Below are positions 2,438 to 22,387 of a stretch of 34,927 nt of DNA, one piece after another. Position numbers and translations under genes: made by a program. The notes under the pieces were generated by a model. The model was not told the origin of the DNA and searched no databases. It was given only the letters and a program-made list of their open reading frames with translations. This stretch comes from Bacteroidales bacterium. Lineage in GTDB: Bacteria > Bacteroidota > Bacteroidia > Bacteroidales > PWNQ01. The stretch covers positions 1 to 34,927 of the forward strand of contig JAIPAE010000014.1 of NCBI GenBank assembly GCA_021740245.1, in the 5' to 3' direction. Position 1 is the stretch's first letter. Each line of letters starts with the position of its first letter.

Positions 2438-5431
2438 TTGCTTATGAATTCAAATGATTACAGTTATTATAATCCCGAAAATCAATATTATTTTTCCGAT
2501 ACTTCATTTGATCTATTGATGCGCAAGCGTATCAGTAAGGTCTTGCTGATCTGTTCCACCTATGATGCATTTATGCTAGAGGAGGACGGGCGCATAGACG
2601 AGCAGATATTTAATGAATATGTTTCACTTAACCTTCGCTATCCGCCTCAGTTTATTCAGGCCTCATCAGCAGAGGAAGCCTGGGATATATTGCATGAACA
2701 ACAAATAGACCTGGTGATTTCCATGCTTAGTATTGAAGATATGGACCCGTTTCAGTTGTCCATATCTTTTAAAAAAGAATATCCGCATATTCCGATTGTT
2801 GTTTTGACACCATTTTCCCGGGAAGTAACCATGAAACTGAGCAATGAGGACCTCAGTGCAATTGACCACGTCTTTTGTTGGTTGGGGAATGCGAATATTT
2901 TGCTGGCCATAATAAAACTGATAGAGGACAGCATGAATGCTTCTTATGATGTGGAAAAAGTAGGGGTGCAGGTCATTATTCTGGTGGAAGATAACATCCG
3001 CTTTTATTCCAGTTATTTACCTAATATTTACAGGATCATTTTCAGGCAATCAAAAAAATTCATGTCCGAGGGACTGAATGAACACCAAAAAATGCTTAGG
3101 ATGCGTGGACGTCCAAAAATGTTACTTGCCAGAACATATGAAGATGCCATTAGCTATTATGAGAAATATAAACATAACCTGTTGGGAATCATATCAGATA
3201 TAAGCTATTCCCGAAAAGGAAAGATGGATAAGTTTGCCGGCGTGCGTTTATGCCAGAAAGTGAGAAAAGACGATAAATTTCTACCCTTTCTTTTACAATC
3301 CAGCGAAGGAGCTAATGAAAAACTTGCTAAACGGGAAAGAGTAGGGTTTATCAATAAAAACTCAAAAACACTTTTAAAAGAACTAAGAGATTACATTGTC
3401 CAAAATTTTGCTTTTGGCGATTTTATTTTTTTGGACCCGTCAACCGGTGAAGAGATCGACAGGGCAAATGATCTCCAATCATTTCAGCAAAAGCTTTATG
3501 CCATTCCTGATAAGACCCTCAATTATCACATAAACAGGAATCATGTCTCAAAGTGGTTGAATGCCCGGGCTTTGTTTCCTATTGCTGATATGTTGAAACA
3601 CCTGCGCCCGGAACATTTTGAAAATATTGATGAAATCCGTAGGTTTTTATTCGATACGATTGCCTCTTACCGGAGAGGAAAGGGAAGGGGAGTTATTGCA
3701 AAATTTTATCGTGAACGCTTTGACGAGTATTTAATTTTTTCACGTATCGGAGAAGGTTCAATTGGAGGAAAGGCTCGTGGTCTTGCATTTATTGATTCTC
3801 TGTTAAAAAAGCACAACCTGATGGATAAATTCAAGGATGTTATTATTACAATTCCACGTACTGTTGTGCTAAGCACTGATGTGTTTGATGAGTATATGGA
3901 AGATAATGAATTGTATGATATTGCCTTGTCCGACAGTAGCGATGATGAAATATTGGAGCAATTTGTCAATGCCCGGTTGCCTTTCAGGATTCATAAAGAC
4001 CTGCTTGCCTTTATACAGGTAGTCAGAAATCCGATTGCCATTCGTTCATCCAGTTTGCTGGAAGATTCACATTATCAGCCTTTTGCTGGGATTTACAGTA
4101 CTTATATGATACCCCGGATTGAAAATGACGAACGCCTGATGCTGGAATTGTTGGGAAATGCCATTAAAAGTGTTTATGCCTCTGTTTTTTTTAAAGACAG
4201 CAAGGCATATATGGAGGCTACATCAAATGTTATTGATGAAGAAAAAATGGGAATTGTTTTACAGGAAGTGTGTGGAAGTGAAAACAATGACTTTGATGAT
4301 CTTTTTGCTCCTACAATATCTGGCGTGGCACAGTCTATCAATTTTTACCCTATTGGTGAGGAAAAACCTGAAGACGGTATAGCCAGCGTGGCAGTTGGCC
4401 TGGGGAAATACATCGTGGATGGTGCCCAAACCCTCAGGTTCTCACCAAAATATCCCCGGAAAATACTACAGCTTTCTTCGCCTGAAATGGCCCTCAGAGA
4501 TACTCAAAAGTATTTTTATGCCCTTGATCTTAAAAGCGAAAGCTTTCACCCTTCTGTGGATGATGCTGTTAACCTAAAAAAAATACGTATTAAAGAAGTA
4601 GCCGAATCATCAGCGTTCAGGCATGTCTTCTCAACGTATGATTATACTAATCATATTATTCGCGATGGCGCAAATTATAAAGGCAAAAAAATTGTGACAT
4701 TTGCAAACATATTGAAAAATAATGCTTTCCCATTAGCTGATATAATAAAAGATATGCTGGAAATAGGTCAACGTGCTATGAATAATCCCATAGAAATTGA
4801 GTTTGCTGTTAACCTGAATATACCTAAAGGACATCCACGCATATTCAGTATGTTACAGATCAGGCCTATAGTTGAAAATAAAGAACAACTTAATGTAGAC
4901 ATAGGTAAAGATATTAAAGAAGAAGATACGATCATTTATTCATATTCAGCTCTTGGTAACGGCGAAATAAAAAACCTGAAAGACATTATTTACATCAAAC
5001 CTGAATCATTTGATGCATCAAAAAATCCGCAAATAGCAGTTGAGTTGGAAAAACTCAATAAACAATTCAGGGAACAAAAAGAAAACTATGTTTTAATCGG
5101 GCCGGGCAGATGGGGTTCAAACGATCCATGGCTTGGAATTCCCGTCAGATGGCCGCAAATATCACAGGCCAGATTGATTGTGGAATCCGGATTAGAAGAC
5201 TACAGGATTGATCCATCACAGGGTACGCATTTTTTTCAAAATCTGACTTCATTTCAGGTAGGATATTTTACTGTCAATCCTTTTATTAATGATGGTCATT
5301 ATGATGTTGAATTTCTTAATAAACAGGATGCCGTTTATGAAAACGATTACCTGCGACATATACGCTTTGAAAAACCTTTAATGGTTAAAATAGATGGCCG
5401 ACAAAATAAAGGCGCATTATTTCTGAATTAA
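2438..5431 (+). CDS. Two receiver-like domains fused to a PEP/pyruvate-binding (PPDK N-terminal, ATP-grasp) domain
   Basis: Second receiver-like block VQVIILVEDN...GIISDISYSRKGKMDKFAGVRL; PPDK_N-like GEGSIGGKARGLAFIDSLL, NPIAIRSSSLLEDSHYQPFAGIYSTYMIP, EIEFAVN...FSMLQIRPI. Confidence 0.85.
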   Translation: MLMNSNDYSYYNPENQYYFSDTSFDLLMRKRISKVLLICSTYDAFMLEEDGRIDEQIFNEYVSLNLRYPPQFIQASSAEEAWDILHEQQIDLVISMLSIEDMDPFQLSISFKKEYPHIPIVVLTPFSREVTMKLSNEDLSAIDHVFCWLGNANILLAIIKLIEDSMNASYDVEKVGVQVIILVEDNIRFYSSYLPNIYRIIFRQSKKFMSEGLNEHQKMLRMRGRPKMLLARTYEDAISYYEKYKHNLLGIISDISYSRKGKMDKFAGVRLCQKVRKDDKFLPFLLQSSEGANEKLAKRERVGFINKNSKTLLKELRDYIVQNFAFGDFIFLDPSTGEEIDRANDLQSFQQKLYAIPDKTLNYHINRNHVSKWLNARALFPIADMLKHLRPEHFENIDEIRRFLFDTIASYRRGKGRGVIAKFYRERFDEYLIFSRIGEGSIGGKARGLAFIDSLLKKHNLMDKFKDVIITIPRTVVLSTDVFDEYMEDNELYDIALSDSSDDEILEQFVNARLPFRIHKDLLAFIQVVRNPIAIRSSSLLEDSHYQPFAGIYSTYMIPRIENDERLMLELLGNAIKSVYASVFFKDSKAYMEATSNVIDEEKMGIVLQEVCGSENNDFDDLFAPTISGVAQSINFYPIGEEKPEDGIASVAVGLGKYIVDGAQTLRFSPKYPRKILQLSSPEMALRDTQKYFYALDLKSESFHPSVDDAVNLKKIRIKEVAESSAFRHVFSTYDYTNHIIRDGANYKGKKIVTFANILKNNAFPLADIIKDMLEIGQRAMNNPIEIEFAVNLNIPKGHPRIFSMLQIRPIVENKEQLNVDIGKDIKEEDTIIYSYSALGNGEIKNLKDIIYIKPESFDASKNPQIAVELEKLNKQFREQKENYVLIGPGRWGSNDPWLGIPVRWPQISQARLIVESGLEDYRIDPSQGTHFFQNLTSFQVGYFTVNPFINDGHYDVEFLNKQDAVYENDYLRHIRFEKPLMVKIDGRQNKGALFLN

Positions 5432-6471: not shown

Positions 6472-6567
6472 TCATTCTTTTCTTTTCAAGTTAATTGCCG
6501 GACAGATATAACTATTGTGCCTAAAATATGTTATTTTTGCTCACACTTTCTGTCATACCAGGTTATT

Positions 6568-8028
6568 ATGTATTTTTTGCTGCGAATTCTGGAAAAGTTA
6601 TTCATTATATATTTTGTAAGCTACATGCTTGTTGATATTGGGCTTTTCATTTATTCCTTTATTGTCTTCAGAAAGCGAAATCGCAAAATAAAATTACCTT
6701 CTGATGAACCTTTTGAAGACCAAAAAGTAACCATCTTAGTGCCCGCCTTCAATGAAGAGGTTTCCATTGCACATTGTGCTGAAATGCTACTTTATCTGGA
6801 TTATCCAAATTATGAGCTGATCGTTATCAATGATGGGTCTAAAGATGATACGTTAGATCAATTAATAAAAAACTTTAATCTAAAGAAAAACAGGTCTCAA
6901 ATCCTGCAACCATTAAAAACATCAACTATTAAAGAAATATATCAGTCAGAGAACAAGGAGCTTATAGTAATAGATAAAGAGAACGGAGGCAAAGCTGATT
7001 CTTTAAATGCTGGCATAAACTTAGCTTCAGGAAAATATATTTGTACGATTGATGCAGATTCTATACTGGATAATCAAGCTTTAAAATATGTGATCATCCC
7101 GTTTCTTAAAAACCCGGCCACAATGGTAACAGGTGGGCAGCTTGCCGCAGCAAATGATATTACATTAAAAAACAATAAAGTTGTGAGTTCGCGAATGCCG
7201 TCAAATATTTGGGTTTTATGGCAGATAATTGAATATATCAAATCATTTTTGGTTTCCCGTATAGGACTCAGCAAGATTAATGCCTTAATGCTTATGTCTG
7301 GCGCCTTTTCAGTATACAGAAAAGATGAATTGCAGGCAATAGGAGGTTTTTTAAGCCCACAAAATGAGCATCCTTATATTATCAAAAATATAGGCAAGGG
7401 AAAACATACAGTATGTGAAGATATGGAGATTGTTGTCCGCTTGTTTAAGTATCGCAAAGATAATAAGCGGAAAGCTAAAGCCACATTTTTGCCAACGCCT
7501 GTATGTTGGACGGAAGTTCCTGAAAACGCAGGAAGCTTGTTTAAACAGCGAGCCAGGTGGCACCAGGGTTTGATAGAGTCGCTTTTTATTCACAGCTCTA
7601 TGATCATGGAACCACGCTATAAAGCTGCAGGTCTTGTAGGATTACCATATTACTTTTTCTTTGAAATGCTGGCTCCTATCGTTAAGGTTTTTGCTATCAT
7701 ATTTGTCATTGTTGCTGTTAATGCTGGAATGATCGACCTACTATGGATTTCTCTGCTGTTGATTTCTGTCATTTTGCTTACAGCCATTATAACCACTTCA
7801 ATTACTGCCGTTATTGAATATTGGAGCAATTATCAATCTCGCACCAATCGCGATGCATTAAGGTATAAGACTTTCTATGATTGGGTGAAGCTTATTTTTG
7901 CCGGAATTATGGGCGAATTTTCGTATTCGTTTTATAAATTAGCAGCGCAATTAAAGGGTTTTGTTTATTTCTTTGCTAACAAAAGTGACTGGAAAAAATT
8001 TGAAAGAAAAGGAATTAAAAAAGTATAA
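6568..8028 (+). CDS. Processive family-2 glycosyltransferase (PgaC/IcaA-like), membrane protein
   Basis: VPAFNEE, INDGSKDDT, DADSIL, CEDMEIV, QRARW motifs and flanking TM segments. ORF track starts at GTG 6517; the internal ATG at 6568 (MYFLLRILEKL) is the more likely start. Confidence 0.9.
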   Translation: MYFLLRILEKLFIIYFVSYMLVDIGLFIYSFIVFRKRNRKIKLPSDEPFEDQKVTILVPAFNEEVSIAHCAEMLLYLDYPNYELIVINDGSKDDTLDQLIKNFNLKKNRSQILQPLKTSTIKEIYQSENKELIVIDKENGGKADSLNAGINLASGKYICTIDADSILDNQALKYVIIPFLKNPATMVTGGQLAAANDITLKNNKVVSSRMPSNIWVLWQIIEYIKSFLVSRIGLSKINALMLMSGAFSVYRKDELQAIGGFLSPQNEHPYIIKNIGKGKHTVCEDMEIVVRLFKYRKDNKRKAKATFLPTPVCWTEVPENAGSLFKQRARWHQGLIESLFIHSSMIMEPRYKAAGLVGLPYYFFFEMLAPIVKVFAIIFVIVAVNAGMIDLLWISLLLISVILLTAIITTSITAVIEYWSNYQSRTNRDALRYKTFYDWVKLIFAGIMGEFSYSFYKLAAQLKGFVYFFANKSDWKKFERKGIKKV

Positions 8029-8172
8029 CACGGAACTTGTTCCGCCTGTTGGCAGAAACATACAGTGGTATGATTATAAGAGAACTAAAAATAGTAGTTG
8101 CCGGATATTTAGCTTATCATAGCGAGCTTCTCTGATTGTAGCGGGGACCATTAAAATCAAAATTATAAACGA

Positions 8173-9732
8173 ATGAAAATAAAGCTATTGACCGTATTAT
8201 TTCTGTTAGCAGGTATTGCTTTTGGTCAAAAGCATCAAAAAGATTCTCTTCGGGCAGCTGGTTATGAAGCCATGACCGAAGGAGAGTATGACAAGGCAGT
8301 AAATGCTTATTCAAAGATCATTTTTTTGGACAGCAGTGATTATGATGCTCATCTGGCGCTTGGAAGACTCTATTACAAAAAGAACAAGTGCGATTCTTCA
8401 ATTCTTTTTTTCCAAAGGATTTACAGTAAGGATTCAACAGATGCTGAAGCTATGATGGGGTTTACACGTTGCTATATCCGAAAAGAAAAATTTGATACGG
8501 CTATATATTTTGCTCATATGAACATAAAAAATAACCCTGCTTACATTCCTGCTTATTTATTACTCGCAAAAGCGTTAAGTTATGACGGTAAAGTGGATAA
8601 AGCCATTGAAGTTTATAAGCAGGCTAACAGGAAAGATGACACCTGGTCACAGGTTTGGGCCGGGTTAGGTAAAATGTATTACTGGAAATCAATGCCGTAT
8701 ACTGCTGAAGAACATTATAAGAAAGCGATTGAATTGGACCCTGAGAATAATTCCATTAAAAATGAATATGAAACGATAAGGAAAATACTGAAACTTAAAT
8801 TAACCGGGAGTTTTCAGTATTTGCAGGAAAAAGAAGAATCATATCAAATAGATGCTTTTGTTCAACGTTATGGAATAAGCAAAAGATTATCTGATCATTT
8901 TCAATTATCGGTTAATTTTTTACTGGATTACTCAACCCGTGAGTTTGTTTTTGATGATGATACAACCCGTTGGTTTGATAATACATGGATTAAAGCAGGA
9001 TGGATAAATGAAAAAAATCATTTCAGTATTTATGCTGGTGGAAGTAATAGTGATCAAAAAATGTCAACTTATGGAGCAAGCTGGAGGTATAAAAACAAGT
9101 TTGGAAAATTAAAAATTAAAAATACCATAGATGGTGGATACAGCTATTTTTATTACTGGAATGAAGTGGGACGACATGCTGTTTCCAATAAACTAAAAAT
9201 CTCATTTTTTGATTTTGTAACAAATGTTGATGTAAGTGCCGGTATTGTTGATGAAAAAGACGTAAGAACCTATACTTCTGATCCCTACATAAAGGATGTA
9301 AATCCTCACATTAATTATAGATTTGCTTTTAAATGGCAGGTTCTTGAAAATCCTGATTTGAAAATAGGAGGAAGCCATTCCTATTATGATTTTAAATATA
9401 TATCCAGGGATTATTATTCACCGAATGACCGTTTTTTGACAGGACCGTTGGTTTCGGTTTATTACGATATCAGAAATTTTTATGTCTACGGAATGTATTC
9501 TTATAATTTTGGTACGGAAAAATATTATTATCTGGAAACAATAAACCCGGGTAATGGCGCTAACAGTGAGGAAGTTGAAAGAAGCGGAACCATTGATGCC
9601 GATAACTGGTCAGCATCTTTTGAAACCGGCTTTAATTGGGATAAATTTTCGTTATCAGCAGGTATTAGCAGATTTTATAATCCGTATTATGAAAATCTGC
9701 TGATATCTTTGTCCATATCCGCTAAATTATAA
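8173..9732 (+). CDS. TPR-repeat protein with C-terminal YaiO-like outer-membrane beta-barrel
   Basis: Signal peptide ending AFGQ; N-terminal TPRs (AYSKIIFLDSSDYDAHLALGRLYYKKNKCDSSILFFQRIY, AEEHYKKAIELDPEN); aromatic alternating strands in the C-terminal half, terminal LLISLSISAKL. Confidence 0.8.
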   Translation: MKIKLLTVLFLLAGIAFGQKHQKDSLRAAGYEAMTEGEYDKAVNAYSKIIFLDSSDYDAHLALGRLYYKKNKCDSSILFFQRIYSKDSTDAEAMMGFTRCYIRKEKFDTAIYFAHMNIKNNPAYIPAYLLLAKALSYDGKVDKAIEVYKQANRKDDTWSQVWAGLGKMYYWKSMPYTAEEHYKKAIELDPENNSIKNEYETIRKILKLKLTGSFQYLQEKEESYQIDAFVQRYGISKRLSDHFQLSVNFLLDYSTREFVFDDDTTRWFDNTWIKAGWINEKNHFSIYAGGSNSDQKMSTYGASWRYKNKFGKLKIKNTIDGGYSYFYYWNEVGRHAVSNKLKISFFDFVTNVDVSAGIVDEKDVRTYTSDPYIKDVNPHINYRFAFKWQVLENPDLKIGGSHSYYDFKYISRDYYSPNDRFLTGPLVSVYYDIRNFYVYGMYSYNFGTEKYYYLETINPGNGANSEEVERSGTIDADNWSASFETGFNWDKFSLSAGISRFYNPYYENLLISLSISAKL

Positions 9733-9735
9733 TTT

Positions 9736-12700
9736 ATGAAAGCAAAAGTCTTTGTTATATTATTGTTTTTAGGGCTGTTGGCTTTTCTTGTTTACAAGAT
9801 GTTGCAATATGAAACTGAATTGCATAAGAAGGAGGTGGTCAAAGAATATATTCGTGATGAAACAGTACCACTGCTTGAAAAAAAATCTCCCGAAGAACTT
9901 CGCTCAATATCCTATAAAGCTGACTATTATTTCCGTGCCAAAGGAGATTACTTCAGCATACTGGATTATGGATATCAAAAGATTGACCCGCACTGGGATA
10001 CGGTTCTTATGAAAGGCATTAACATGGGATTGGCATTACCTGGTAAATTTCCCGCTGAGTTTGCATTGACTTATGAACAATATATGGATTGGCTTATAAA
10101 AATCGGAAACATGAATACAAACGTTATTCGTGTTTATACAATCCTTCCACCGGTATTCTATGAAGCTTTTGCTCAATATAATTTGCAGCATCAGGATAAA
10201 CCGCTGTATTTATTTCATGGTGTGTGGGCAATTGAACCACCAGAACATGATTATCGAAACGAAACCTATACCAGAGCAATAAAACGGGAAATTAAAAATG
10301 CGTTAGATGTTCTGCACGGAAATGCTGTATTATATCCCGATAAGGGGAAAGCTTCAGGAGTGTATGCTGTTGATGTATCGGAATATGTTGTCGGTCTGAT
10401 TTTGGGCAGGGAATGGGAACCCACTGGTGTTTATGTGACGAATCAGAAATATGATATCGATCATTATTACGGTGATTTTGTTTCTATGATCGGTGGTAAT
10501 GCCATGGAAGCTTGGCTGGCTGAGATTATGGACTTTACTGTTTTGTATGAAACCCAAACATACCAAATGCAGCATCCGGTATCTTTTGTAAACTGGTTGC
10601 CGCTGGACCCAATGTATCACAATACGGAGATTATCGAAAATGAAAAAGTTCGTGAGTTTGATAATGATCTGGAAGTGGTGCACTTTGAACGTTTTCATAG
10701 CAGTGAACTGTTTGATCCGGGAATTTTTGCTTCATATCATGTCTATCCCTATTACCCGGATTATATATATCTGAAAAAACAATATGCTAAAGCACGTAAT
10801 ATTGAATCAAAAGCAGATAATTATTTTGGGTATTTACAGGATTTGAAATCAAGGCATAAAGGAATGCCGTTGATTATAGCTGAGTATGGAGTTCCAAGCA
10901 GCCGGGGAAACAGTCATTTTACACCTTTTGGATTTGATCAGGGAGGACACTCTGAACGCGAGCAAGCTGAAATTTCAATGATGCTGACAAAAGATATTTT
11001 TCATACAGGTTGTGCCGGAGCTGTCTATTTTGAATGGACGGATGAATGGTTTAAGCATAACTGGTTGGTTATGGATTTTGAAAAACCTTTCCAGGACAGG
11101 AAAATCTGGCACAATATGGAAAATCCGGAACAAAATTTCGGAATTATGGCTTTGGAAGCAAGGGAAAGGACAATTGACGGAAAACTGAATGACTGGAAAG
11201 ACAATTGGAAAGACAAGAAGGGAGTAAAAATTCAGTTCCATGCTGATCCTTCCTATTTTTATGTGGCATCCGGGTTTTCAAAACTTGATCTTCAAAAACA
11301 TAACCTTTTCATTGCCATAGATACATATGCTAAAGATAAAGGAGACAAACGGTTGCCGTTCATTGATAAAAAATTCAGCAGAGGATTCGAATTTCTTGTG
11401 GAAATAAACTCAACAGATAGTGCCCGGATTTTGGTGGATGAGCCTTATTCTGTTTATACGGATATTTATCACGATTCTATACCTGTTTATTCTTCCAAAC
11501 CCAACAGTAATGGAAAATATGTAAAGCAGTTGTTATTATCTAACCGGGGCAGGCAATCATTGACCGGAGAAGTTTTTCCGCCGGGAAAATTCAACCGGAG
11601 TAAGCTACAGCACGGTAAAAGTGACCAAAGTGAAACATCAAATGCAGACTGGTTCTGGGATGCGGATCGTAAACAATTGGAAATGCGGTTAACCTGGCAT
11701 TTACTTAATATTAGTGATCCGGCCAAGCGTTATGTGTTGGATGATAAACCCGGCACAGATAAAATAGAATACAGCCGGACAGATGGGTTTTATTTAAAGA
11801 TTTTTGCTACTGATAAAAATAACCGTGTTACTGATGAATGGCCGGAGAATGGATATTTCCAGTACACATGGGAAATGTGGGATGAACCTGAATGGTCTGC
11901 CAGAATCAAACCGCTGTACGATAGTCTGAAAAACTATTTTGGACATATAAAACCTTCGGATTTTGAAATACAACTGAAACAAAAATCCCGGAAAACTGGT
12001 GATTTCACAATCTGTAAGTATTTTGAAAACCATAAAGGAGCTGTATCATTTAGCTTTTCCGGAACTGACTTTTCCCATTATAATCTGGTTTATCCTTTGT
12101 TGGAAAAATATCACACCAAGGCTACCTTTGTCATTAATCCGGAATTGTTATCATCAGTCCCGGAACGCCGGCAAACTGATGATGCAGGCCTTAGAAGAAG
12201 ATTAACAGTTCAGGAAATCAAAGAAATGCAAGCTGATCAACATACACTGGCTTTGTTTTCCGATAATACTAACTTAGAAGCATTGACAGGTTTGTTCCGT
12301 AGTAAACTCGATAAAAAGCCATTTCTGTTACATACCCCACGAACGGATATAAAACAAACTGAACCTTTTTATTTTGTAAGAAAGTATTCAGATAATAACC
12401 CGAATTCGTATAAAGGAATTGATTTTTATAATCTGCATGGAAATGAGTATTCTACAGCTAAATTAGATTCTCTGTTCAAGCATGTTCATCAAAGTTGGTT
12501 TATCCTGAATTATAAATATATAACACCCGATATTCAATCAGAAAGAAATCCGGAATTGTTTATTGCTGAAAAACAGTTTGAATGGCAGCTCCGATTAGCC
12601 AGAAATCATGAATTCTGGCTCTCTGATGAATGGAATGTCTATAAATATCTGTTCCAACGTGAAAATTCTGAAGTCAAAGTATCAAAGTATAATAATTTGA

Positions 12701-12891
12701 TTTTTGTTAACCTGGAAACGAATCTGGATCCGGATGTTTTTGATCATCCACTGACAATTTGTTACAAAACTGATGCACCTTATGTTATGATAAATAAACC
12801 TGATGGAGAATATACGCTGACTAACCGCACCGGAAATATATTTTTTAATATAAGACCTGAGGATCAACTTACAATAAAAGAAATATGGTAA
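9736..12891 (+). CDS. Membrane-anchored glycoside-hydrolase-like (TIM barrel) protein with middle beta-domain and C-terminal polysaccharide-deacetylase-like domain
   Basis: N-terminal TM anchor; GH-A-like GINMGLALPGKFPAEF...NTNVIRVYTILPP...LILGREWEP...PLIIAEYGVPSS...AGAVYFEWTDEW; C-terminal GAVSFSFSGTDFSHYNLVYPLLEKYHTKATFVI resembles the first strand/helix of NodB-fold deacetylases. Confidence 0.75.
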   Translation: MKAKVFVILLFLGLLAFLVYKMLQYETELHKKEVVKEYIRDETVPLLEKKSPEELRSISYKADYYFRAKGDYFSILDYGYQKIDPHWDTVLMKGINMGLALPGKFPAEFALTYEQYMDWLIKIGNMNTNVIRVYTILPPVFYEAFAQYNLQHQDKPLYLFHGVWAIEPPEHDYRNETYTRAIKREIKNALDVLHGNAVLYPDKGKASGVYAVDVSEYVVGLILGREWEPTGVYVTNQKYDIDHYYGDFVSMIGGNAMEAWLAEIMDFTVLYETQTYQMQHPVSFVNWLPLDPMYHNTEIIENEKVREFDNDLEVVHFERFHSSELFDPGIFASYHVYPYYPDYIYLKKQYAKARNIESKADNYFGYLQDLKSRHKGMPLIIAEYGVPSSRGNSHFTPFGFDQGGHSEREQAEISMMLTKDIFHTGCAGAVYFEWTDEWFKHNWLVMDFEKPFQDRKIWHNMENPEQNFGIMALEARERTIDGKLNDWKDNWKDKKGVKIQFHADPSYFYVASGFSKLDLQKHNLFIAIDTYAKDKGDKRLPFIDKKFSRGFEFLVEINSTDSARILVDEPYSVYTDIYHDSIPVYSSKPNSNGKYVKQLLLSNRGRQSLTGEVFPPGKFNRSKLQHGKSDQSETSNADWFWDADRKQLEMRLTWHLLNISDPAKRYVLDDKPGTDKIEYSRTDGFYLKIFATDKNNRVTDEWPENGYFQYTWEMWDEPEWSARIKPLYDSLKNYFGHIKPSDFEIQLKQKSRKTGDFTICKYFENHKGAVSFSFSGTDFSHYNLVYPLLEKYHTKATFVINPELLSSVPERRQTDDAGLRRRLTVQEIKEMQADQHTLALFSDNTNLEALTGLFRSKLDKKPFLLHTPRTDIKQTEPFYFVRKYSDNNPNSYKGIDFYNLHGNEYSTAKLDSLFKHVHQSWFILNYKYITPDIQSERNPELFIAEKQFEWQLRLARNHEFWLSDEWNVYKYLFQRENSEVKVSKYNNLIFVNLETNLDPDVFDHPLTICYKTDAPYVMINKPDGEYTLTNRTGNIFFNIRPEDQLTIKEIW

Positions 12892-14720
12892 ATGAAAAAA
12901 TAAAATTATCTGTTTGGTTATTCGTTGCATTTTTGCTGTTTAATGCATGTAATCCCGGTGAAAAGCCCCGGAATCGCACCTGGGAAAAATTTAACATGAA
13001 CCAACAATTGCCTAAAGCTTTAGTTGTAACTACAGGCTTTGAGGGCGAAAATGCTACCTTACCCAAAGGTATTGTTATTGCATTGCAAGCATTTAACCGG
13101 GAAGGAGTGACGGTTACATTAAAAACCAGAGACATACTTTATCAGCCTGATAAGCTCAATGATTACAACATTTTAATATTATCTACAGCACCCGGTTACC
13201 ATGATGCCGACCGCAAATATTCACTTTCGTATATGTCGGAAAATGAGATGAAGATTATTCGTTCCTTTGTTAAAAATGGTGGTGTTTTAATTTCGGGTGA
13301 TAATGTAGGCAGAAATATGATGGACGGTACAGACAGGATAACGTTGGACAGGAGCCTGGATCATTCTAATTACCCATTAGCTGATATTTTTGGGGTAAAA
13401 CTTACAGAGCATAACATGGAAGGCTTCCGTATATATGGTGGCCTTTCAGGCAATAATCCGGACTACATCCGTCAGGTTGCAGAAAAAAACTTTTATACTC
13501 TTGTTCCTGATTCTATTTATAGTAAAAAGATTGCAATAATGGCACAATGGGTGAATGATAAAGACACTTTACCTGCTGTTCTGAAAAACCGATCTGGAAA
13601 AGGGACTGCTTATCTGCTCGCCTCTTCTGATCTGTTACATCCGGCTAATGAAGGTGGATTCTTAAGTACAAAGCGAATTTGTGAGTTTTACAAAGAAGTT
13701 GTGCAGGATTTTAAACAAAAAAATGACATTTCGTTGAAGCTTATGCCCTGGCCTAATGCTCATGATTTCGCTTTTGCTGTGACGTTAAACGCTTCGGGCA
13801 AACTAAAAGAGTATGAACGAACATTGAAACTGCTTGAGAAAGCTGATATTGTACCTGATATTTTTGTCAGCGGGAATGTTCCGGGTACTATAAAAAAGCT
13901 GTTAATAAAGCAAAAACTACCTATTCATAGTCGTGGGTTTAAATTTACGAACTACAGGCAGTTAAATTATGGACAGGCTACAAGAGATATCCTGGAAAAT
14001 GAAATGTATTGGGATACGCATTTTGATGGATTCCGGTTCCCCTATACCATGACAGATTTTTGGGGACTGATGGCATTGGTTGATAATCAATATGCTTTTG
14101 AAAGCAGTATTGGAGCAAATAATCTGGAATTTATTCACGGTAGCATTGTGCCGCATAATCTTGTCCTTGCCAGCAGCGGCTATTATAAATCAACTGATTT
14201 GATGGAGGTTGCACCAACTTATCATGATGATTATTATTTTCTTAAAAGTGTTGATAATGCGATTATTGACAATAAAAGAGTAATTATTAAAAAAACAAAT
14301 ATTTATCGTAAGTATCTGCAGAATTATCTTACCTATGCTGTCAAACCTTATAATGGTGCTTTTGTTTATCAGGGGCATCCTGCTTATGTGGGCCATAATG
14401 ATACTACAATTACAGCTCTTGATACATTGATAAAGCATGCAAAAAAGGAGAATTCCTGGATCACTACAATCGGAACCATAGCAGATTTTAGATATAACCT
14501 GATGAAGCTGAAGTTTTATGTTCAGAAAAAAAACAAACGTACTATTATCCATGTGGGCGGGCCGGAAAACATTAGAACTGATAATGTAACGATAGCCGTT
14601 GACCGAAAGCCTGATAAAGTGAAGGCTGTAAAAGGGAATGTCAAAACCAAAAGTATGGGCAATTCCTGGTTTATCATATTCGATGCATATCCTGGCCAGA
14701 AACTCAAAATATTCTATTAA
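12885..14720 (+). CDS. Lipoprotein with GATase-like N-terminal region and polysaccharide-deacetylase-like domain
   Basis: Lipobox LLFNAC; flavodoxin/GATase-like NDYNILILSTAPGYH...SFVKNGGVLISGDNVG; deacetylase-like FAFAVTLNASGKLKEYERTLKLLEKADIVPDIFVSG...FDGFRFPYTMTDFWGLMAL. Start overlaps the preceding stop (12885-12891). Confidence 0.65.
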   Translation: MVNEKIKLSVWLFVAFLLFNACNPGEKPRNRTWEKFNMNQQLPKALVVTTGFEGENATLPKGIVIALQAFNREGVTVTLKTRDILYQPDKLNDYNILILSTAPGYHDADRKYSLSYMSENEMKIIRSFVKNGGVLISGDNVGRNMMDGTDRITLDRSLDHSNYPLADIFGVKLTEHNMEGFRIYGGLSGNNPDYIRQVAEKNFYTLVPDSIYSKKIAIMAQWVNDKDTLPAVLKNRSGKGTAYLLASSDLLHPANEGGFLSTKRICEFYKEVVQDFKQKNDISLKLMPWPNAHDFAFAVTLNASGKLKEYERTLKLLEKADIVPDIFVSGNVPGTIKKLLIKQKLPIHSRGFKFTNYRQLNYGQATRDILENEMYWDTHFDGFRFPYTMTDFWGLMALVDNQYAFESSIGANNLEFIHGSIVPHNLVLASSGYYKSTDLMEVAPTYHDDYYFLKSVDNAIIDNKRVIIKKTNIYRKYLQNYLTYAVKPYNGAFVYQGHPAYVGHNDTTITALDTLIKHAKKENSWITTIGTIADFRYNLMKLKFYVQKKNKRTIIHVGGPENIRTDNVTIAVDRKPDKVKAVKGNVKTKSMGNSWFIIFDAYPGQKLKIFY

Positions 14721-14753
14721 AAGGCTGCTCTCAACCATTGAGAACAGCCTTTT
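14719..14753. terminator. Bidirectional intrinsic terminator between convergent genes
   Basis: AAAAGGCTGcTCTCAA-CCA-TTGAGAaCAGCCTTTT: 15 paired positions with one mismatch, A-tract and T-tract on both sides, between convergent CDS ends at 14720(+) and 14783(-). Confidence 0.85.
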
Positions 14754-14782
14754 ACAGATGATTTTTTATCCATTTCCGGAAA

Positions 14783-17700
14783 TTATTCTTTTCCTGTTTT
14801 ATCAGGAAATTCCGGTATTTCAGGCAATTTATGATATTCATCCAGTTGTTTCATGATCACTTTTATAGCTTTTTCCAGTTGTTGGTCGATACCGTTATAT
14901 TCTTTGGCCGGATCATTAACTACAATAATATCCGGTTCCACACCATGGCCTTCGATGATCCATTTACTTTCTTCCGAATGATAAGAGGCAAACTCAGGTT
15001 TGCGTAAGTCGGCGCCGTCAATAAAAGGCAGTGAACCACGGATTCCTACAACACCACCCCATGAGCGCTGTCCAATTACTGTTCCCATATCATGCTTTTT
15101 GAATGCGTATGGGAATAAGTCCCCATCAGAAGCGGAATACTGGTTGATCAATAAAACTTTAGGCCCACGAAGCATCTGTCGTGGCGTATTGCCGGGTATC
15201 TGAACGTTTCTTGCCATGTTGGCACGGGTGATCTCACGCTTTAAACGCTCAATAAGCATAGGAGAAACGTTGCCCCCTCCGTTACCACGGTCATCAATGA
15301 TCAGAGCTTTTTTATTCAGTTGCGGGTAGAAATATTTGACAAATTCATTTAATCCTTCGGAAATCATATTGGGAACATGAATGTATCCAACCTGACCATT
15401 TGTAGCCTCATTTACCCGGTCAATATTATTTCGCACCCAGTTGAAATAATACAGTTCAGATTCATCCTTAATAGGTTCCACTATGATATTTCGGCTTCCA
15501 TCCATTTTTGGTTTTGAGTTAACTGTCAGTTCAACAGGATCACCGGCTGTATTCACCAATGATTTAAACAGATTATCCTTTTCATCCAGAGATTTTCCGT
15601 TAACCGACAGAATATAATCTCCCTCGCTCAGATTTACTCCGATTTCTGTTAATGGTGAACGTAAATCTTTACGCCAGTTTTCTCCTTTTAACAAATGCGT
15701 AATTTTAAAATATCCGGATTTGTCTTTCTCAAACTCTGCTCCTAATAAACCGGTATATATCTTTTCTGCTTCTTCTTTGTCTCCACCGTTTATATAAGCA
15801 TGTCCCACATTCAGCTCGCCAATCATTTCGCCGATGATGTAATTCAGGTCGTTACGGTTTCTGGCATGCTTCACCAGAGGTTTATATTTATCATGAATAG
15901 CTTTCCAATCCAAGCCATGCATACCTGAATCATAAAAGAAATCACGCATCTGACGCCAGCTTTCTTCAAATATCTGATCCCATTCTTCCCGCTTGTCAAC
16001 CAGAACCTGCATGTCAGATAAATCTGCTTTTTCTTTCAGCTTTACTTTACCTGCAGGCAGGTCTATAATTGCATATTTCTTTCCCTGTTTTACCATCATC
16101 TTTTTACCGTTTGATGATATAGTAAAGCTCATTTTAGAACCTAATGTTTTCTCTTCTTCTTTATCCAGATCAAACATCTTAAAGTTATAACCTTTGTGGT
16201 TAAACTGCTTTTCATTGTAATAGACTTTATCTCCCTGGGGGGAAACATTCCAATAATTGGATGCATCTACTGGTAAAGCTGCAATTCGATCCTTAATGCC
16301 GTCAATATCAACTTTTATATTCGTAGTTTTGGAATTATTCTCATCCGTGGATTCCTGATCTTTATTTTTATCTACGTTTACTTCATCATTTTCAGGTGCG
16401 AAAGGTGAGGGGGTTTCTTTGGCCAGTGTAACCAAATAGATTTTGGACATATCGCGATATGCATGATTCCATTCTGTTTCACTGTAAATGGGATTAAAAC
16501 TTCTTTTAGAGGTAAAGAACAAATATTTTCCCTCGGTTCCGAATACAGGTGAGGAGGAGCTGTACCATGTATCTGTTACTTCATATGATTCTTCGTTGTC
16601 CAGGTTGTAAAGAAAAACCTGGGACATATCGTTCATAGCCTGCTTACTGTATGTAATCCATTTACTGTCCGGAGCCCAGTTAAAGTTACGTATTTCCCAT
16701 TTTTTGGATATCGTTACTTCCGTTACCTTTTTACTGTCAATATCCACATAACGCAATCGCATTTTTTTATCACTCCAGAGTAGTTTTTTGCTGTCTGGCG
16801 ACCATTTTACATTGAATTTATAAGTTTCAGCATCTTCAGTGATCTGAACAGGTGTTTCTTTACCTGATTTGTCCTGTATGTATATTTCATATTCACCGGT
16901 TTTATCAGAAATATAAGCTATATATTTTCCATCAGGTGACCAAACAGCGTTCCGGTCATGTGCTGAAGAAGACTGTGTCAAATTTCTTGTGATGCCATTT
17001 TCAGCCGGAACAGTGAATATATCGCCCCGGGCTCCAAACACTAAGCGTTTTCCATCGGGCGCTATATTAGCTGAATTGATGTATTCTGATGCATCAACCC
17101 ATTCCTGTCTTCCGGTTTCTTTGTCGTCATTGATAAATATGTCGAGTTTTTCTGCTGCTTGTGTTTCAAGATCGAAACGATAGATATATCCGCCATTCTC
17201 AAATACAATAGCATCTTTTCCTATTGCCGGAAATTTAATATCAAACTTAGTAAAGTTGGTCACTTTTTTCAGCTCATCGTTATCCAGATCATAAGCGAAT
17301 AAGTTCATCGTACGATCCCTGTCCGAAATAAAATATATGGTGTTTTCATGCCACATTGGAATAATATCCTGGGCAATATGGTCTGTAATAGCTTTTGTTT
17401 CTCTTGTTTCAAAGTCATGAATCCATACCTCATCTGCCATACCTCCTTTATAGTATTTCCAGGTTCTGAATTCGCGAAATACTTTGTTATAAGCCATTTT
17501 TGAACCATCTTTATTAAAGGATAAAAAACCGCCGCGAGGAAGGGGAAGTTGTTTTTCTAATCCACCATCAACGGAAATACTAAAGAGTTGTCCCACAAAA
17601 TCGTTAAATGACTCCTTCCTGGAGCGAAAAACGATTTCGTTGCCATCAGGCTTCCAGTCCATAACAATATTATTGGGGCCCATACGGTCCGATATATCAT

Positions 17701-18028
17701 CACGGCTCAGTGTTGCTGTATATGTCAATCTTTCCGGTTCGCCGCCTTCAGCAGGCATGCGATATACTTCCGTGTTCCCGTCATATTGAGCGGTGAAGGC
17801 GATTTCACTGCCATCAGGTGAAAAACGCGCAAACATTTCATAACCTTCATCCGAAGTGATTTTCCTGGCTACTCCGCCATCTTTGCCTACTAAATATAAA
17901 TCACCGGCGTAAGTGAAAACGATCTTCTCACCGTGGATATCAGGAAATCGCAACAATCTGCTGCTTTCCTGGCCGATTCCACTTATTGTCAGCAATGTTG
18001 CTATTGTCGCTATTATTAAACTTCTCAT
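14783..18028 (-). CDS. Tricorn-like S41 family protease (WD40/TolB-like repeats + PDZ + S41 peptidase)
   Basis: TolB-like repeats (FSPDGSEIAFTAQYDGNTEVYRMPAEGGEPERLT, WSPDGKYIAYISDKTGEYEIYIQDKSG); PDZ-like GVNLSEGDYILSVNGKSL; S41 core ALIIDDRGNGGGNVSPMLIERL...LINQYSASDGDLFPYAFKKHDMGTVIGQRSWGG. Confidence 0.95.
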   Translation of the reverse strand: MRSLIIATIATLLTISGIGQESSRLLRFPDIHGEKIVFTYAGDLYLVGKDGGVARKITSDEGYEMFARFSPDGSEIAFTAQYDGNTEVYRMPAEGGEPERLTYTATLSRDDISDRMGPNNIVMDWKPDGNEIVFRSRKESFNDFVGQLFSISVDGGLEKQLPLPRGGFLSFNKDGSKMAYNKVFREFRTWKYYKGGMADEVWIHDFETRETKAITDHIAQDIIPMWHENTIYFISDRDRTMNLFAYDLDNDELKKVTNFTKFDIKFPAIGKDAIVFENGGYIYRFDLETQAAEKLDIFINDDKETGRQEWVDASEYINSANIAPDGKRLVFGARGDIFTVPAENGITRNLTQSSSAHDRNAVWSPDGKYIAYISDKTGEYEIYIQDKSGKETPVQITEDAETYKFNVKWSPDSKKLLWSDKKMRLRYVDIDSKKVTEVTISKKWEIRNFNWAPDSKWITYSKQAMNDMSQVFLYNLDNEESYEVTDTWYSSSSPVFGTEGKYLFFTSKRSFNPIYSETEWNHAYRDMSKIYLVTLAKETPSPFAPENDEVNVDKNKDQESTDENNSKTTNIKVDIDGIKDRIAALPVDASNYWNVSPQGDKVYYNEKQFNHKGYNFKMFDLDKEEEKTLGSKMSFTISSNGKKMMVKQGKKYAIIDLPAGKVKLKEKADLSDMQVLVDKREEWDQIFEESWRQMRDFFYDSGMHGLDWKAIHDKYKPLVKHARNRNDLNYIIGEMIGELNVGHAYINGGDKEEAEKIYTGLLGAEFEKDKSGYFKITHLLKGENWRKDLRSPLTEIGVNLSEGDYILSVNGKSLDEKDNLFKSLVNTAGDPVELTVNSKPKMDGSRNIIVEPIKDESELYYFNWVRNNIDRVNEATNGQVGYIHVPNMISEGLNEFVKYFYPQLNKKALIIDDRGNGGGNVSPMLIERLKREITRANMARNVQIPGNTPRQMLRGPKVLLINQYSASDGDLFPYAFKKHDMGTVIGQRSWGGVVGIRGSLPFIDGADLRKPEFASYHSEESKWIIEGHGVEPDIIVVNDPAKEYNGIDQQLEKAIKVIMKQLDEYHKLPEIPEFPDKTGKE

Positions 18029-18640: not shown

Positions 18641-19180
18641 ATGGCACGACCAAAACGAAGACGTAAAATGAGTAATCCTCCCAATGTGCGGGGGTTCAGG
18701 CCGTTCGGAGCGTCAAATGTTGGCGGTAATCCGGTAGAACTTTTATATGAGGAATTTGAGGCATTACGGCTTGCTGATTATGAGAAATTATCACAGGTTG
18801 AAGCAGCAGAGATTATGGAAGTGTCCAGGCCTACATTTACCAGGATTTACGATCGTGCGCTGAAGAAAATTGCTCAGGCATTAAATGAAACGCGTTCTTT
18901 CATCATTGAAGGAGGAAATATATATTTTGATGATCAATGGTATCGATGTAATTATTGTCATTCGGTATACAAATCCAGTAAGGGAAGACAGAAACATTGT
19001 GCTGTTTGTAGTTCAGCAGATATCGAACATATCAATTCTACGGTCGAAGATTCATTAGAAGCTAAAAAACAATGTATTTGTGACGAATGTGGACGCATCA
19101 TTAATGCAGAAAATGGAACACCGTGTCGAGAAATCAAATGCCCTGATTGTGGTGGCATTTTACGAAAGGAATATGTATGA
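18641..19180 (+). CDS. DUF134 family HTH DNA-binding protein with C-terminal zinc-ribbon-like extension
   Basis: MARPKRRRKMSNPP..FRPFG...LLYEEFEALRLADYEKLSQVEAAEIMEVSRPTFTRIYDRALKKIAQAL typical of DUF134; cysteine pairs CNYC..CAVC..CICDEC..CPDC. Confidence 0.9.
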   Translation: MARPKRRRKMSNPPNVRGFRPFGASNVGGNPVELLYEEFEALRLADYEKLSQVEAAEIMEVSRPTFTRIYDRALKKIAQALNETRSFIIEGGNIYFDDQWYRCNYCHSVYKSSKGRQKHCAVCSSADIEHINSTVEDSLEAKKQCICDECGRIINAENGTPCREIKCPDCGGILRKEYV

Positions 19181-19494
19181 AAGTAGCAGTAGCTGTCAAA
19201 GAAACCCGCCTGATCGGAGCGTTGGAATATCATTTCGGAAAATCTCCGTATTTTGCTATTATTGATGAACTGGAGAACATTGAATTTATCACAAATAAAT
19301 TTGCAAAAGAACCGGCTGCAAAAGGGGTAATGACGGCAAATCAACTGGCAGAAAGAGGAGTGACCAAAGTATATGCAGGGGAGTTTGGAATAAAAGTAAA
19401 AACCACATTGGATGTTTTGGGAATCGAAATGCAACATGCTGATGTACATAAAAAAACATTAAAAGAATTCATACAAACACAATTAAAATACTGA
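19177..19494 (+). CDS. NifB/NifX-type (dinitrogenase iron-molybdenum cofactor biosynthesis) domain protein
   Basis: KVAVAVKETRL...HFGKSPYFAIID...ANQLAERGVTKVYAGEFGIKVKTTLDVLGIEM. ORF track starts at 19147; the ATG at 19177 (ATGA overlap with DUF134 stop) fits better. Confidence 0.85.
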   Translation: MKVAVAVKETRLIGALEYHFGKSPYFAIIDELENIEFITNKFAKEPAAKGVMTANQLAERGVTKVYAGEFGIKVKTTLDVLGIEMQHADVHKKTLKEFIQTQLKY

Positions 19495-19498
19495 TCAT

Positions 19499-19972
19499 AT
19501 GCCAAATAAAGATGGAAAAGGCCTCGCAGGAAGGGGAGGACAAGGCAGAAGAAACGGAAACCGAAAGGGAGCTCACCGTCAACAGGGAGGGCAAGCAAGA
19601 GGTTACGGACGGCCAGAAGCAGGAAAACAACGGCCTGGTAAAGGTATTAATAAAGGAATAATTGCCGTTAGCGCTGAAGGAAATTCAAAAAACAGTCTTT
19701 TTGACTTAAGATTTGGACGTTGCAATTTCTTCATGCTTTTTAATCCAGAAAGCAGGGATATTTCATTCCTGCCCAATCCCGGGAAAGAAGCATCTGGTGG
19801 AGCGGGTCCGATAGCTGCTGAATTACTGGCCAACCATGGAGTGACTAAGGTATTCTCTGGTGATTTTGGACCAAAAGCTGCTGATGCTCTGAAAGCTATG
19901 GATATAGAAATGGTTGTATTACAGACAAAAGGCGAAAGCCTGGAATCATTAATCCATAAATTAAACAATTAA
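19499..19972 (+). CDS. Gly/Arg/Gln-rich N-terminal region fused to NifX-type domain
   Basis: GRGGQGRRNGNRKGAHRQQGGQARGYGRPEAGKQRPGKG then GIIAVSAEG...FDLRFGRCNFFMLFN...AELLANHGVTKVFSGDFGPKAADALKAMDIEM. Confidence 0.85.
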   Translation: MPNKDGKGLAGRGGQGRRNGNRKGAHRQQGGQARGYGRPEAGKQRPGKGINKGIIAVSAEGNSKNSLFDLRFGRCNFFMLFNPESRDISFLPNPGKEASGGAGPIAAELLANHGVTKVFSGDFGPKAADALKAMDIEMVVLQTKGESLESLIHKLNN

Positions 19973-19984
19973 AACAATAAAGCT

Positions 19985-20224
19985 ATGCCTAATTATGACA
20001 GAACCGGGCCAACTGGATCAGGCCCTATGACTGGAAGGCAAATGGGCCGTTGCAATCCTGCAAACAAAGGCCTGACTCGTGATGAATTACCGGAAGGAAA
20101 TTTTCCGAATGAAGACCAACCAGTTCGCGGAATCGGCCTCGGCAGAGGGTTTGCCCGCAGATGCGGTTTTGGAAAAGGCCGCGGATTAGCACGGGGTAAC
20201 CGCTTTGGTAATCGAAACTGGTAA
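19985..20224 (+). CDS. DUF5320-like small Gly/Arg-rich protein
   Basis: MPNYDRTGPTGSGPMTGRQMGRCNPAN...GRGFARRCGFGKGRGLARGNRFG. Confidence 0.75.
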   Translation: MPNYDRTGPTGSGPMTGRQMGRCNPANKGLTRDELPEGNFPNEDQPVRGIGLGRGFARRCGFGKGRGLARGNRFGNRNW

Positions 20225-20233
20225 AATGAATCT

Positions 20234-20255
20234 GTAGCCGGGTTATCCCGGCTAC
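20234..20255 (+). other. Intra-operon stem-loop
   Basis: GTAGCCGGG-TTAT-CCCGGCTAC: perfect 9-bp stem, 4-nt loop, no T-tract follows. Confidence 0.75.
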
Positions 20256-20275
20256 TTAATCAAAAAACAAAAAAC

Positions 20276-20611
20276 ATGAAAAAAATAGCCGTACCGACTA
20301 TTAATGGAAATTTATGCACCCACTTTGGGCATTGTCAAAAGTTTGCCATTATCACTGTTGAAAATGATAAGATTGTAAAAGAAGAAATGGCGGAACCGCC
20401 GGTGCATCAACCTGGTGTTTATCCCAGGTGGTTGCATGAGCTGGGTGTAAGTGAGATTATTGCCGGAGGAATGGGACAAAAAGCAAAGGTCATATTTGAT
20501 CAGAATGATATCAGAGTTAATGTTGGAGTAGAAAGCAAACCAGCCAGACTAGCTGTTAATGAACTATTGCAAAATGAGCTGGAAACAGGTTCCAACCGGT
20601 GTGATCATTAA
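20276..20611 (+). CDS. NifB/NifX-type domain protein
   Basis: KKIAVPTINGNLCTHFGHCQKFAIITVENDKI...WLHELGVSEIIAGGMGQKAKVIFDQNDIRVNVGV. Confidence 0.9.
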   Translation: MKKIAVPTINGNLCTHFGHCQKFAIITVENDKIVKEEMAEPPVHQPGVYPRWLHELGVSEIIAGGMGQKAKVIFDQNDIRVNVGVESKPARLAVNELLQNELETGSNRCDH

Positions 20612-20627
20612 AATTTGATTTTCCGAT

Positions 20628-21506
20628 ATGCCTGATAATTTAAAAATTGCTGTTGCCAGCGGAAAAGGAGGGACAGGCAAAACGACAGTATCTGTTAACT
20701 TGTTTGAATCCGTAAGACGTCAAAATCATCAGGTGACCCTGGCTGATTGTGATGTGGAAGAACCGAATGATCATGTTTTTCTGGATGGGCAGCTTAAACA
20801 TAATGAAATTGTTACAACACCCATCCCCAGTATCAACAAAGATAAATGCGTGTATTGCGGCGATTGTGCGAAAATTTGTACTTTTAATGCCATACTTTTT
20901 GTGAAACCGATTTCTCATATTCAAGTTCTTCCGGACTTGTGTAAGAGTTGCGGAGCCTGCCTGTGGGCTTGTAAATATGATGCTATCACAGAGTATCCGA
21001 AAAAACTTGGGGTTATCAATCATTATGAAGTAAATGGACAATACCTGACAGAGGGAAAACTGGAGATTGGAAGTCCTTTTGCTGTGCCTGTCATTAAAAA
21101 ACTTAAAAAAGAAACTCCTGAAAGTGATATTGTAATTTATGATTCACCACCCGGCACATCCTGTCCGGTGATGGAAACCATAGTGGATGTGGATTTTGTG
21201 GTAGTGGTAACTGAGCCTACCCCTTTTGGCCTTTCTGATCTTAAGCTAATGGTGGAAACACTAAAAAAAATGAAAAAACAAGCCGGTGTGGTCATAAACA
21301 GAAGTACTAACAACAGTCAGACCTTATATGGTTACCTTGAGCAGGAAAGCCTTCCTGTTTTAATGGAAATTCCTTTCGACAGAAAGCTGGCTGCTCAGTA
21401 TTCCAATGGTAAATTGTTTACTGATATGGAAGGGGATTATGAAAATAAGTTCTATAGTTTGTTTGAACGTATTCGGGAAGCGCTGAAAAAAGAAGTCAAC
21501 GAATGA
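20628..21506 (+). CDS. MinD/ParA-superfamily ATPase with inserted 2[4Fe-4S] ferredoxin domain
   Basis: Deviant Walker A SGKGGTGKTT; CVYCGDCAKICTFNAI and CKSCGACLWACKYDAI; DSPPGTSCPV. Confidence 0.93.
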   Translation: MPDNLKIAVASGKGGTGKTTVSVNLFESVRRQNHQVTLADCDVEEPNDHVFLDGQLKHNEIVTTPIPSINKDKCVYCGDCAKICTFNAILFVKPISHIQVLPDLCKSCGACLWACKYDAITEYPKKLGVINHYEVNGQYLTEGKLEIGSPFAVPVIKKLKKETPESDIVIYDSPPGTSCPVMETIVDVDFVVVVTEPTPFGLSDLKLMVETLKKMKKQAGVVINRSTNNSQTLYGYLEQESLPVLMEIPFDRKLAAQYSNGKLFTDMEGDYENKFYSLFERIREALKKEVNE

Positions 21507-22387
21507 AACAAATAACTATTATTAGCGGAAAAGGAGGCACAGGAAAAACAAGCCTCACAGCAGCACTTGCCTCAAAAATGCAAAATACCATATTTACTGA
21601 TTGCGATGTTGATGCGGCTGATTTATATCTTTTGTTAACGCCTGAAGTAAAGCAGAGACATACCTTTCCCGGTGGACAGACCGTACAGATAAATCAGCAA
21701 AAATGTACCTCCTGCGGTATTTGTCAATCGCTTTGCCGGTTTGATGCGATACAAAAAAAGGATGATGTGTATAGCATTATAGATCATCACTGCGAGGGAT
21801 GTAAGCTTTGCATGCATGCCTGTCCTGAGAGTGCAATTGATATGCTGAAATCAGAGAGCAGCGAATGGTATGAGTCAGATACACGCTTTGGGCCGATGAT
21901 CCATGCCCGTCTGGGTATAGGAGAAGATCTATCCGGAAAGCTTGTATCTAAGCTCCGCGAGCAAGCCCGGGAAAAAGCTAAAGAATTAAAGGCTGATTAT
22001 ATCCTTACGGATGGACCCCCTGGTGTTGGTTGTCCTGTTATTGCTTCCATTACAGGAACTGACCTTGGACTTGTTATTACAGAACCCACCATGTCAGGAC
22101 TCAGTGATCTGAAAAGAGTGAGAGAACTGGCCATGCAATTTAATCTCCCCTTAAAAGTGATTATTAATAAATCAGATATCAATCCGGAAATGGCAAAGAA
22201 AATTGAAGAATATTGTTCTGAACATCAGGTGGAAGTCCTGGCGCATATTCCTTATGATAAAGTTTTTCTTGATGCCATGATACAACAAAAGACATTACCG
22301 GAATTTGCCCCTGAGCATGATCTGAATAAGATACTGGAAACTATTCATCAGTCCATCATAACGCATGCGACCGAAAAGCAGGTATAG
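21503..22387 (+). CDS. MinD/ParA-superfamily ATPase with inserted 2[4Fe-4S] ferredoxin domain (paralogue of the preceding gene)
   Basis: SGKGGTGKTS; CTSCGICQSLCRFDAI and CEGCKLCMHACPESAI; DGPPGVGCPVIAS; ATGA overlap with upstream gene. Confidence 0.93.
   Translation: MKQITIISGKGGTGKTSLTAALASKMQNTIFTDCDVDAADLYLLLTPEVKQRHTFPGGQTVQINQQKCTSCGICQSLCRFDAIQKKDDVYSIIDHHCEGCKLCMHACPESAIDMLKSESSEWYESDTRFGPMIHARLGIGEDLSGKLVSKLREQAREKAKELKADYILTDGPPGVGCPVIASITGTDLGLVITEPTMSGLSDLKRVRELAMQFNLPLKVIINKSDINPEMAKKIEEYCSEHQVEVLAHIPYDKVFLDAMIQQKTLPEFAPEHDLNKILETIHQSIITHATEKQV

Follow-up and report, generated by a model that had tools for sequence, protein, structure and literature searches.

The window analysed here, the whole stretch of 34,927 nucleotides, carries at positions 6568-14720 four genes on the forward strand in the order GT2, TPR/barrel, GHdac and LPdac (Table 1). 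The sequence-only reading had described four same-strand genes with a 3-nt gap and a 7-nt overlap, and the list of open reading frames bears out both coordinates and spacing: 3 nt separate the TPR gene from GHdac, GHdac and LPdac overlap by 7 nt, and a longer gap of 144 nt lies between GT2 and the TPR gene. An in-frame GTG at 6517 offers a possible alternative start for GT2. The grouping of the four genes is more than chance, since 22 further loci show the identical order and a strong hairpin coincides with the end of LPdac. A Tricorn-like protease at 14783-18028 is convergent with LPdac. Elsewhere in the window, one protein at 2438-5431 fuses a response-regulator receiver domain with a PPDK_N ATP-binding domain, and the region 18641-22387 holds, by inspection, a DUF134-type regulator, small FeMo-cofactor-type proteins and two ferredoxin-MinD ATPases. 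No Rfam family was matched in the window.

Table 1. Genes, protein domains and intergenic features of the locus, with the evidence for each.
Feature	Position	Strand	Evidence
GT2, processive synthase, 486 aa	6568..8028	+	Pfam Glycos_transf_2; DxD, ED, QxxRW motifs
Dispersed intergenic repeat copy filling the GT2-TPR gap	8029..8172	.	17 own-genome matches; 3' end contexts
TPR/barrel-like protein, putative export porin	8173..9732	+	TPR_1 by Pfam; hydropathy alternation
GHdac, 1051 aa	9736..12891	+	AlphaFold mean pLDDT 84.7
GHdac hydrophobic helix	residues 2-31	+	N-terminal
GHdac predicted clan GH-A TIM-barrel domain	9988..11145, residues 85-470	+	Foldseek GH157 9g4n; invariant Glu
GHdac middle region, mostly beta	11146..11955, residues 471-740	+	Model secondary structure; CBM9-like by inspection
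GHdac degenerate NodB domain	11998..12888, residues 755-1051	+	S-G-F-T and K replace D-D-H-H and H
LPdac lipoprotein, 611 aa	12885..14720	+	AlphaFold mean pLDDT 91.2; PelA 9cgy whole-length match
LPdac ThuA/GH42M-like alpha-beta domain	13002..13739	+	PF08532 in 21/27 members
LPdac pseudo-deacetylase domain	13752..14507	+	N-A-R-F replaces D-D-H-H; MT3 Arg/Pro, MT5 His kept
LPdac small C-terminal beta domain	14508..14717	+	Model secondary structure
Terminator-like hairpin between convergent genes	14718..14754	.	-20 kcal/mol, z -6.3

The repeat that fills the GT2-TPR gap is about 130 nt long, and its 3' end adjoins the TPR start codon. Of 22 sites with this 3' end, TAAAATCAAAATTATAAAC, in the window's own genome (sites printed twice being counted once), 21 have an ATG 2 nt further on, and at 12 of them an open reading frame of at least 50 codons begins there. 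A related element precedes LPdac in the same-genus locus L010, at 12160-12288, and the GT2 and TPR genes overlap by 4 nt in L010, L012 and L013. A folded structure was looked for in the repeat and none was found.

Architecture of the four proteins

The GT2 protein matches Pfam Glycos_transf_2 (2.7e-22) and carries the DxD (D162/D164), ED (E284-D285) and QxxRW (Q327-R328-A-R330-W331) motifs, whose residues are invariant (22/22). Its best NCBIfam model is PgaC_IcaA, at 132 bits, far below the 422-bit cut-off. The next protein consists of a TPR region at about residues 25-200 (TPR_1, 1.6e-14) and a C-terminal domain (205-519) for which no Pfam, NCBIfam or PDB family was matched. The alternating hydropathy of this domain (-0.15, 0.14, -0.20 and 0.16 at lags 1-4) suggests a beta-barrel-like fold; the protein is a putative export porin. 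The barrel had been called YaiO-like; the YaiO models PF19413 (Pfam) and TIGR04390 (NCBIfam) gave no match in the window and profile alignment was of no use, so that this label is abandoned.

The N-terminal domain of GHdac (residues 85-470) has no Pfam or PDB match by sequence. Foldseek searches with its AlphaFold model returned the GH157 structure 9g4n as the best match (E 1.1e-11), followed by GH2 and GH5. E226, E228 and E383 are invariant (26/26), and in the model E226/E228 and E383 are located at strand ends; the predicted TIM barrel, with conserved Glu terminating strands 4 and 7, has the features of clan GH-A. GH157 endo-beta-1,3-glucanases are the nearest fold, although identity is 10-12%, no match exists at the sequence level and the context is different. 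A GH72 identity was considered from one weak match in a relative (E 0.27) and rejected. The hydrolase of PgaB is of the GH153 type with a catalytic Asp (PMC5933820), and the GHdac domain is not this domain. The order first proposed for GHdac, glycosidase N-terminal and deacetylase fold C-terminal, stands, whereas the hydrolase belongs with clan GH-A and not with PgaB.

LPdac begins with a lipobox, FNAC (Cys22), identified by inspection. Its best whole-length fold match is PelA (9CGY; TM 0.51 over 632 columns), and its middle part matches CE4 deacetylases in Foldseek. PelA is built of hydrolase, mixed alpha/beta, deacetylase and beta-rich domains (PMC12022489), of which LPdac has the last three; what had been listed as an extra lipoprotein is thus not unexplained but a three-domain match to PelA. 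Between them, the predicted models of GHdac and LPdac show the glycosidase and the deacetylase folds.

Conservation and spread of the locus

A scan of the genome catalogue with GHdac as query yielded 31 loci, a set that samples only loci containing GHdac. They come from Bacteroidota and from MAGs labelled Delongbacteria, Calditrichaeota, Electryonea, WOR-3, Chlorobiota, Gemmatimonadales and Deltaproteobacteria, so that its range extends beyond Bacteroidota, the group named in the first reading. Apart from the window, 22 loci carry all four families in the order GT2-TPR-GHdac-LPdac, including four that came from a subsequent sampling of the order, and several of the remaining loci are broken by contig ends. 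This neighbourhood survey upholds the co-conservation of the four genes. In L014, L020, L025, L030 and L031 the locus has six genes, GT2 being preceded by an LPdac-type gene and a small deacetylase; the genes flanking the loci are otherwise mostly unrelated. Pairwise distance matrices of the four families over 23 loci correlate (r 0.86-0.93), which fits joint inheritance, although a common history of the species would by itself push r up as well.

In even samples, GHdac as query found matches in 9 of 396 genomes of the phylum and in 22 of 393 genomes of the order, the window's own genome being counted; the other eight matches in the phylum sample are proteins of about 850 aa without a deacetylase domain. 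The composition of the locus also varies. L033 has GHdac with no GT2 or TPR gene upstream, and in L034 an LPdac-type gene with an intact motif sits upstream; both count against the reading proposed below. The Gemmatimonadales locus L036 holds GT2, GH and TPR genes together and no LPdac, showing that a core without deacetylases exists. In L045, L046 and L048, GT2 and a GH-only relative are paired with a YaiO-type barrel (the YaiO family models were run on L045, and the barrels of L046 and L048 are its homologues). A HEAT-like protein lies near the GH-only relatives and GT2 in these three loci, and the GH protein of L045 bears a Por_Secre_tail. Beside GT2, the loci L027, L029, L034 and L038 carry an additional gene made up of bacterial Ig (Big_7) repeats. 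No published description of the cluster was found in a literature search covering open-licence papers.

Loci for polysaccharide degradation often contain glycosidase and deacetylase folds, and the genes could on that ground be taken for a degradation rather than a synthesis locus. We regard this as very improbable, since an invariant processive GT2 and a TPR-plus-barrel-like protein are present in every complete locus, and no SusC/SusD-like gene was recognised by inspection among the open reading frames of the window.

Live and dead deacetylase domains

The NodB domains were scored for the base Asp, the metal Asp and two His, DDHH denoting an intact site. In the window, the NodB domains of both GHdac and LPdac are degenerate, with catalytic and metal ligands missing, so that active deacetylation by this locus is not supported. 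Nine loci encode a small deacetylase as a gene of its own upstream of GT2; this enzyme is DDHH in 9/9, and the GHdac NodB domain is degenerate in all nine. The GHdac domain itself is DDHH in L017, L023, L027, L029, L034, L038 and L094, where the small deacetylase is absent. At its usual downstream position, LPdac carries Asn instead of the base Asp in 28/28 cases, and its metal site is never intact; of the LPdac-type copies encoded upstream, 6/6 are DDHH. Neither a live GHdac domain nor a small deacetylase is found in the window, L010, L012, L028 and L095-L097. The GHdac domain of L011, whose contig begins inside the TPR gene, is dead too, and L013 and L018 are not fully scorable because of contig ends. 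A concatenated tree places the window together with L010 and L012 and has degenerate GHdac domains in more than one branch.

The rate of change differs among these domains, with the reservation that the ratios are rough because synonymous sites are near saturation: pN/pS is 0.29-0.41 for the dead domain of LPdac among four close members, 0.47-0.65 for that of GHdac over six pairs, and 0.14-0.20 for the GH domain of GHdac in pairs with the window. We read LPdac as a retained pseudoenzyme whose domain appears constrained. The dead domain of GHdac is a weaker case and may be decaying, given its fast divergence in the three pairs with the window (0.52-0.65).

Since neither NodB domain of the locus is catalytically competent in the window's clade, the locus there should itself not deacetylate the polymer. 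A NodB enzyme encoded elsewhere might still do so: at least one short Polysacc_deac_1 protein lies outside the locus in 8/8 genomes searched, the window's own included, where a short Polysacc_deac_1/NodB protein was found on another contig (C17). That protein is, however, generic and unlinked to the locus, and no second live deacetylase of the small or LPdac type was found in the own genome (67% complete) or in two same-genus genomes (G446 and G553). We therefore consider deacetylation in trans unlikely, though by no means negligible.

Proposed function and comparison with known systems

We interpret the locus as one for synthase-dependent synthesis, processing and export of an exopolysaccharide, with dead local NodB domains in the window's clade, at a probability of roughly 0.7. 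The invariant GT2 motifs, the TPR protein, the modifying folds and the co-conserved gene order support this interpretation. Of the elements that characterise synthase-dependent secretion, GT2, TPR and modifying folds are present, and hydropathy periodicity is the one pointer to the porin. GT2 would polymerise a probably beta-linked sugar and drive the chain across the inner membrane. GHdac, held by its N-terminal helix, would face the periplasm, where its clan GH-A domain may cut or transglycosylate the chain and so set its length or release the polymer. LPdac and the TPR domain would hold the chain and guide it to the barrel-like C-terminal domain for export, with the dead NodB domains possibly binding or guiding it; in the ancestral state the polymer would also have been deacetylated. 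Hints at the polymer's identity diverge, the GH157-like fold pointing to a beta-glucan and the ancestral deacetylases to acetamido sugars.

More tentatively, and with considerable doubt, the locus could represent a distinct class of exopolysaccharide machine, combining an undescribed clan GH-A family with an obligate pseudo-deacetylase lipoprotein as non-catalytic polymer handler, among which live and dead deacetylase domains have been repeatedly exchanged. The system would add a means of polysaccharide secretion to Bacteroidota and neighbouring phyla and, with it, a new family of glycosidases that probably serves in biosynthesis. Natural loci with live or dead deacetylase domains make a non-catalytic role of such domains directly testable.

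Like the Pga system (PgaABCD, PNAG), the locus combines a GT2 synthase, a TPR protein with a putative outer-membrane porin domain and one protein joining hydrolase and deacetylase folds. The initially proposed part list (processive GT2, TPR protein, glycosidase/deacetylase-fold protein and lipoprotein) holds, the first two by Pfam and the folds by AlphaFold and Foldseek. The TPR domain of PgaA binds PNAG and also modulates PgaB (PMC9384988), and active hydrolases are borne by both PgaB and PelA (PMC5933820, PMC12022489). PgaB, however, has an N-terminal active deacetylase and a C-terminal GH153 domain, whereas in GHdac the order is reversed, the fold is GH-A and the deacetylase residues are lost. 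A true Pga system whose domains have been shuffled and whose product is poly-beta-1,6-GlcNAc would agree with this general part list and with PgaC_IcaA as the best curated model of GT2, but is improbable: GT2 does not reach the curated level of that model, the invariant Glu residues of the hydrolase differ from the catalytic Asp of GH153 (PMC5933820), the locus has no live deacetylase, and PgaD (PF13994) was not detected in the five genomes searched, of which the own genome is 67% complete. Pga is thus a poor main template, also because LPdac resembles the C-terminal three domains of PelA.

With Pel, the likeness lies in LPdac, whose alpha-beta, deacetylase and beta domains follow the order in PelA, its best whole-length fold match. 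LPdac differs in having neither the hydrolase domain nor the catalytic residues, and the synthase is a GT2. That LPdac is a PelA relative within a Pel-type system, with a GalNAc/GalN polymer, seems quite improbable, as PelG (PF16933) was not detected in five genomes, the own one (67% complete) among them, a GT2 synthase stands in place of PelF, and PelA-type active-site residues are absent from 28/28 LPdac proteins at the usual position.

The NfrA/NfrB system of E. coli, which makes the NGR glycan, pairs a GT2 with a TPR-barrel export protein (PMC8669472). The present locus likewise has a GT2 plus a TPR-barrel-type protein, the barrel here being suggested by hydropathy periodicity. NfrB is activated by c-di-GMP, and to our knowledge NfrA/NfrB has no counterpart of GHdac or LPdac. 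Since searches of five genomes detected neither PgaD nor PelG and GT2 scores 132 against 422 bits, the locus is a member of neither Pga nor Pel, and its functional resemblance to synthase-dependent systems holds.
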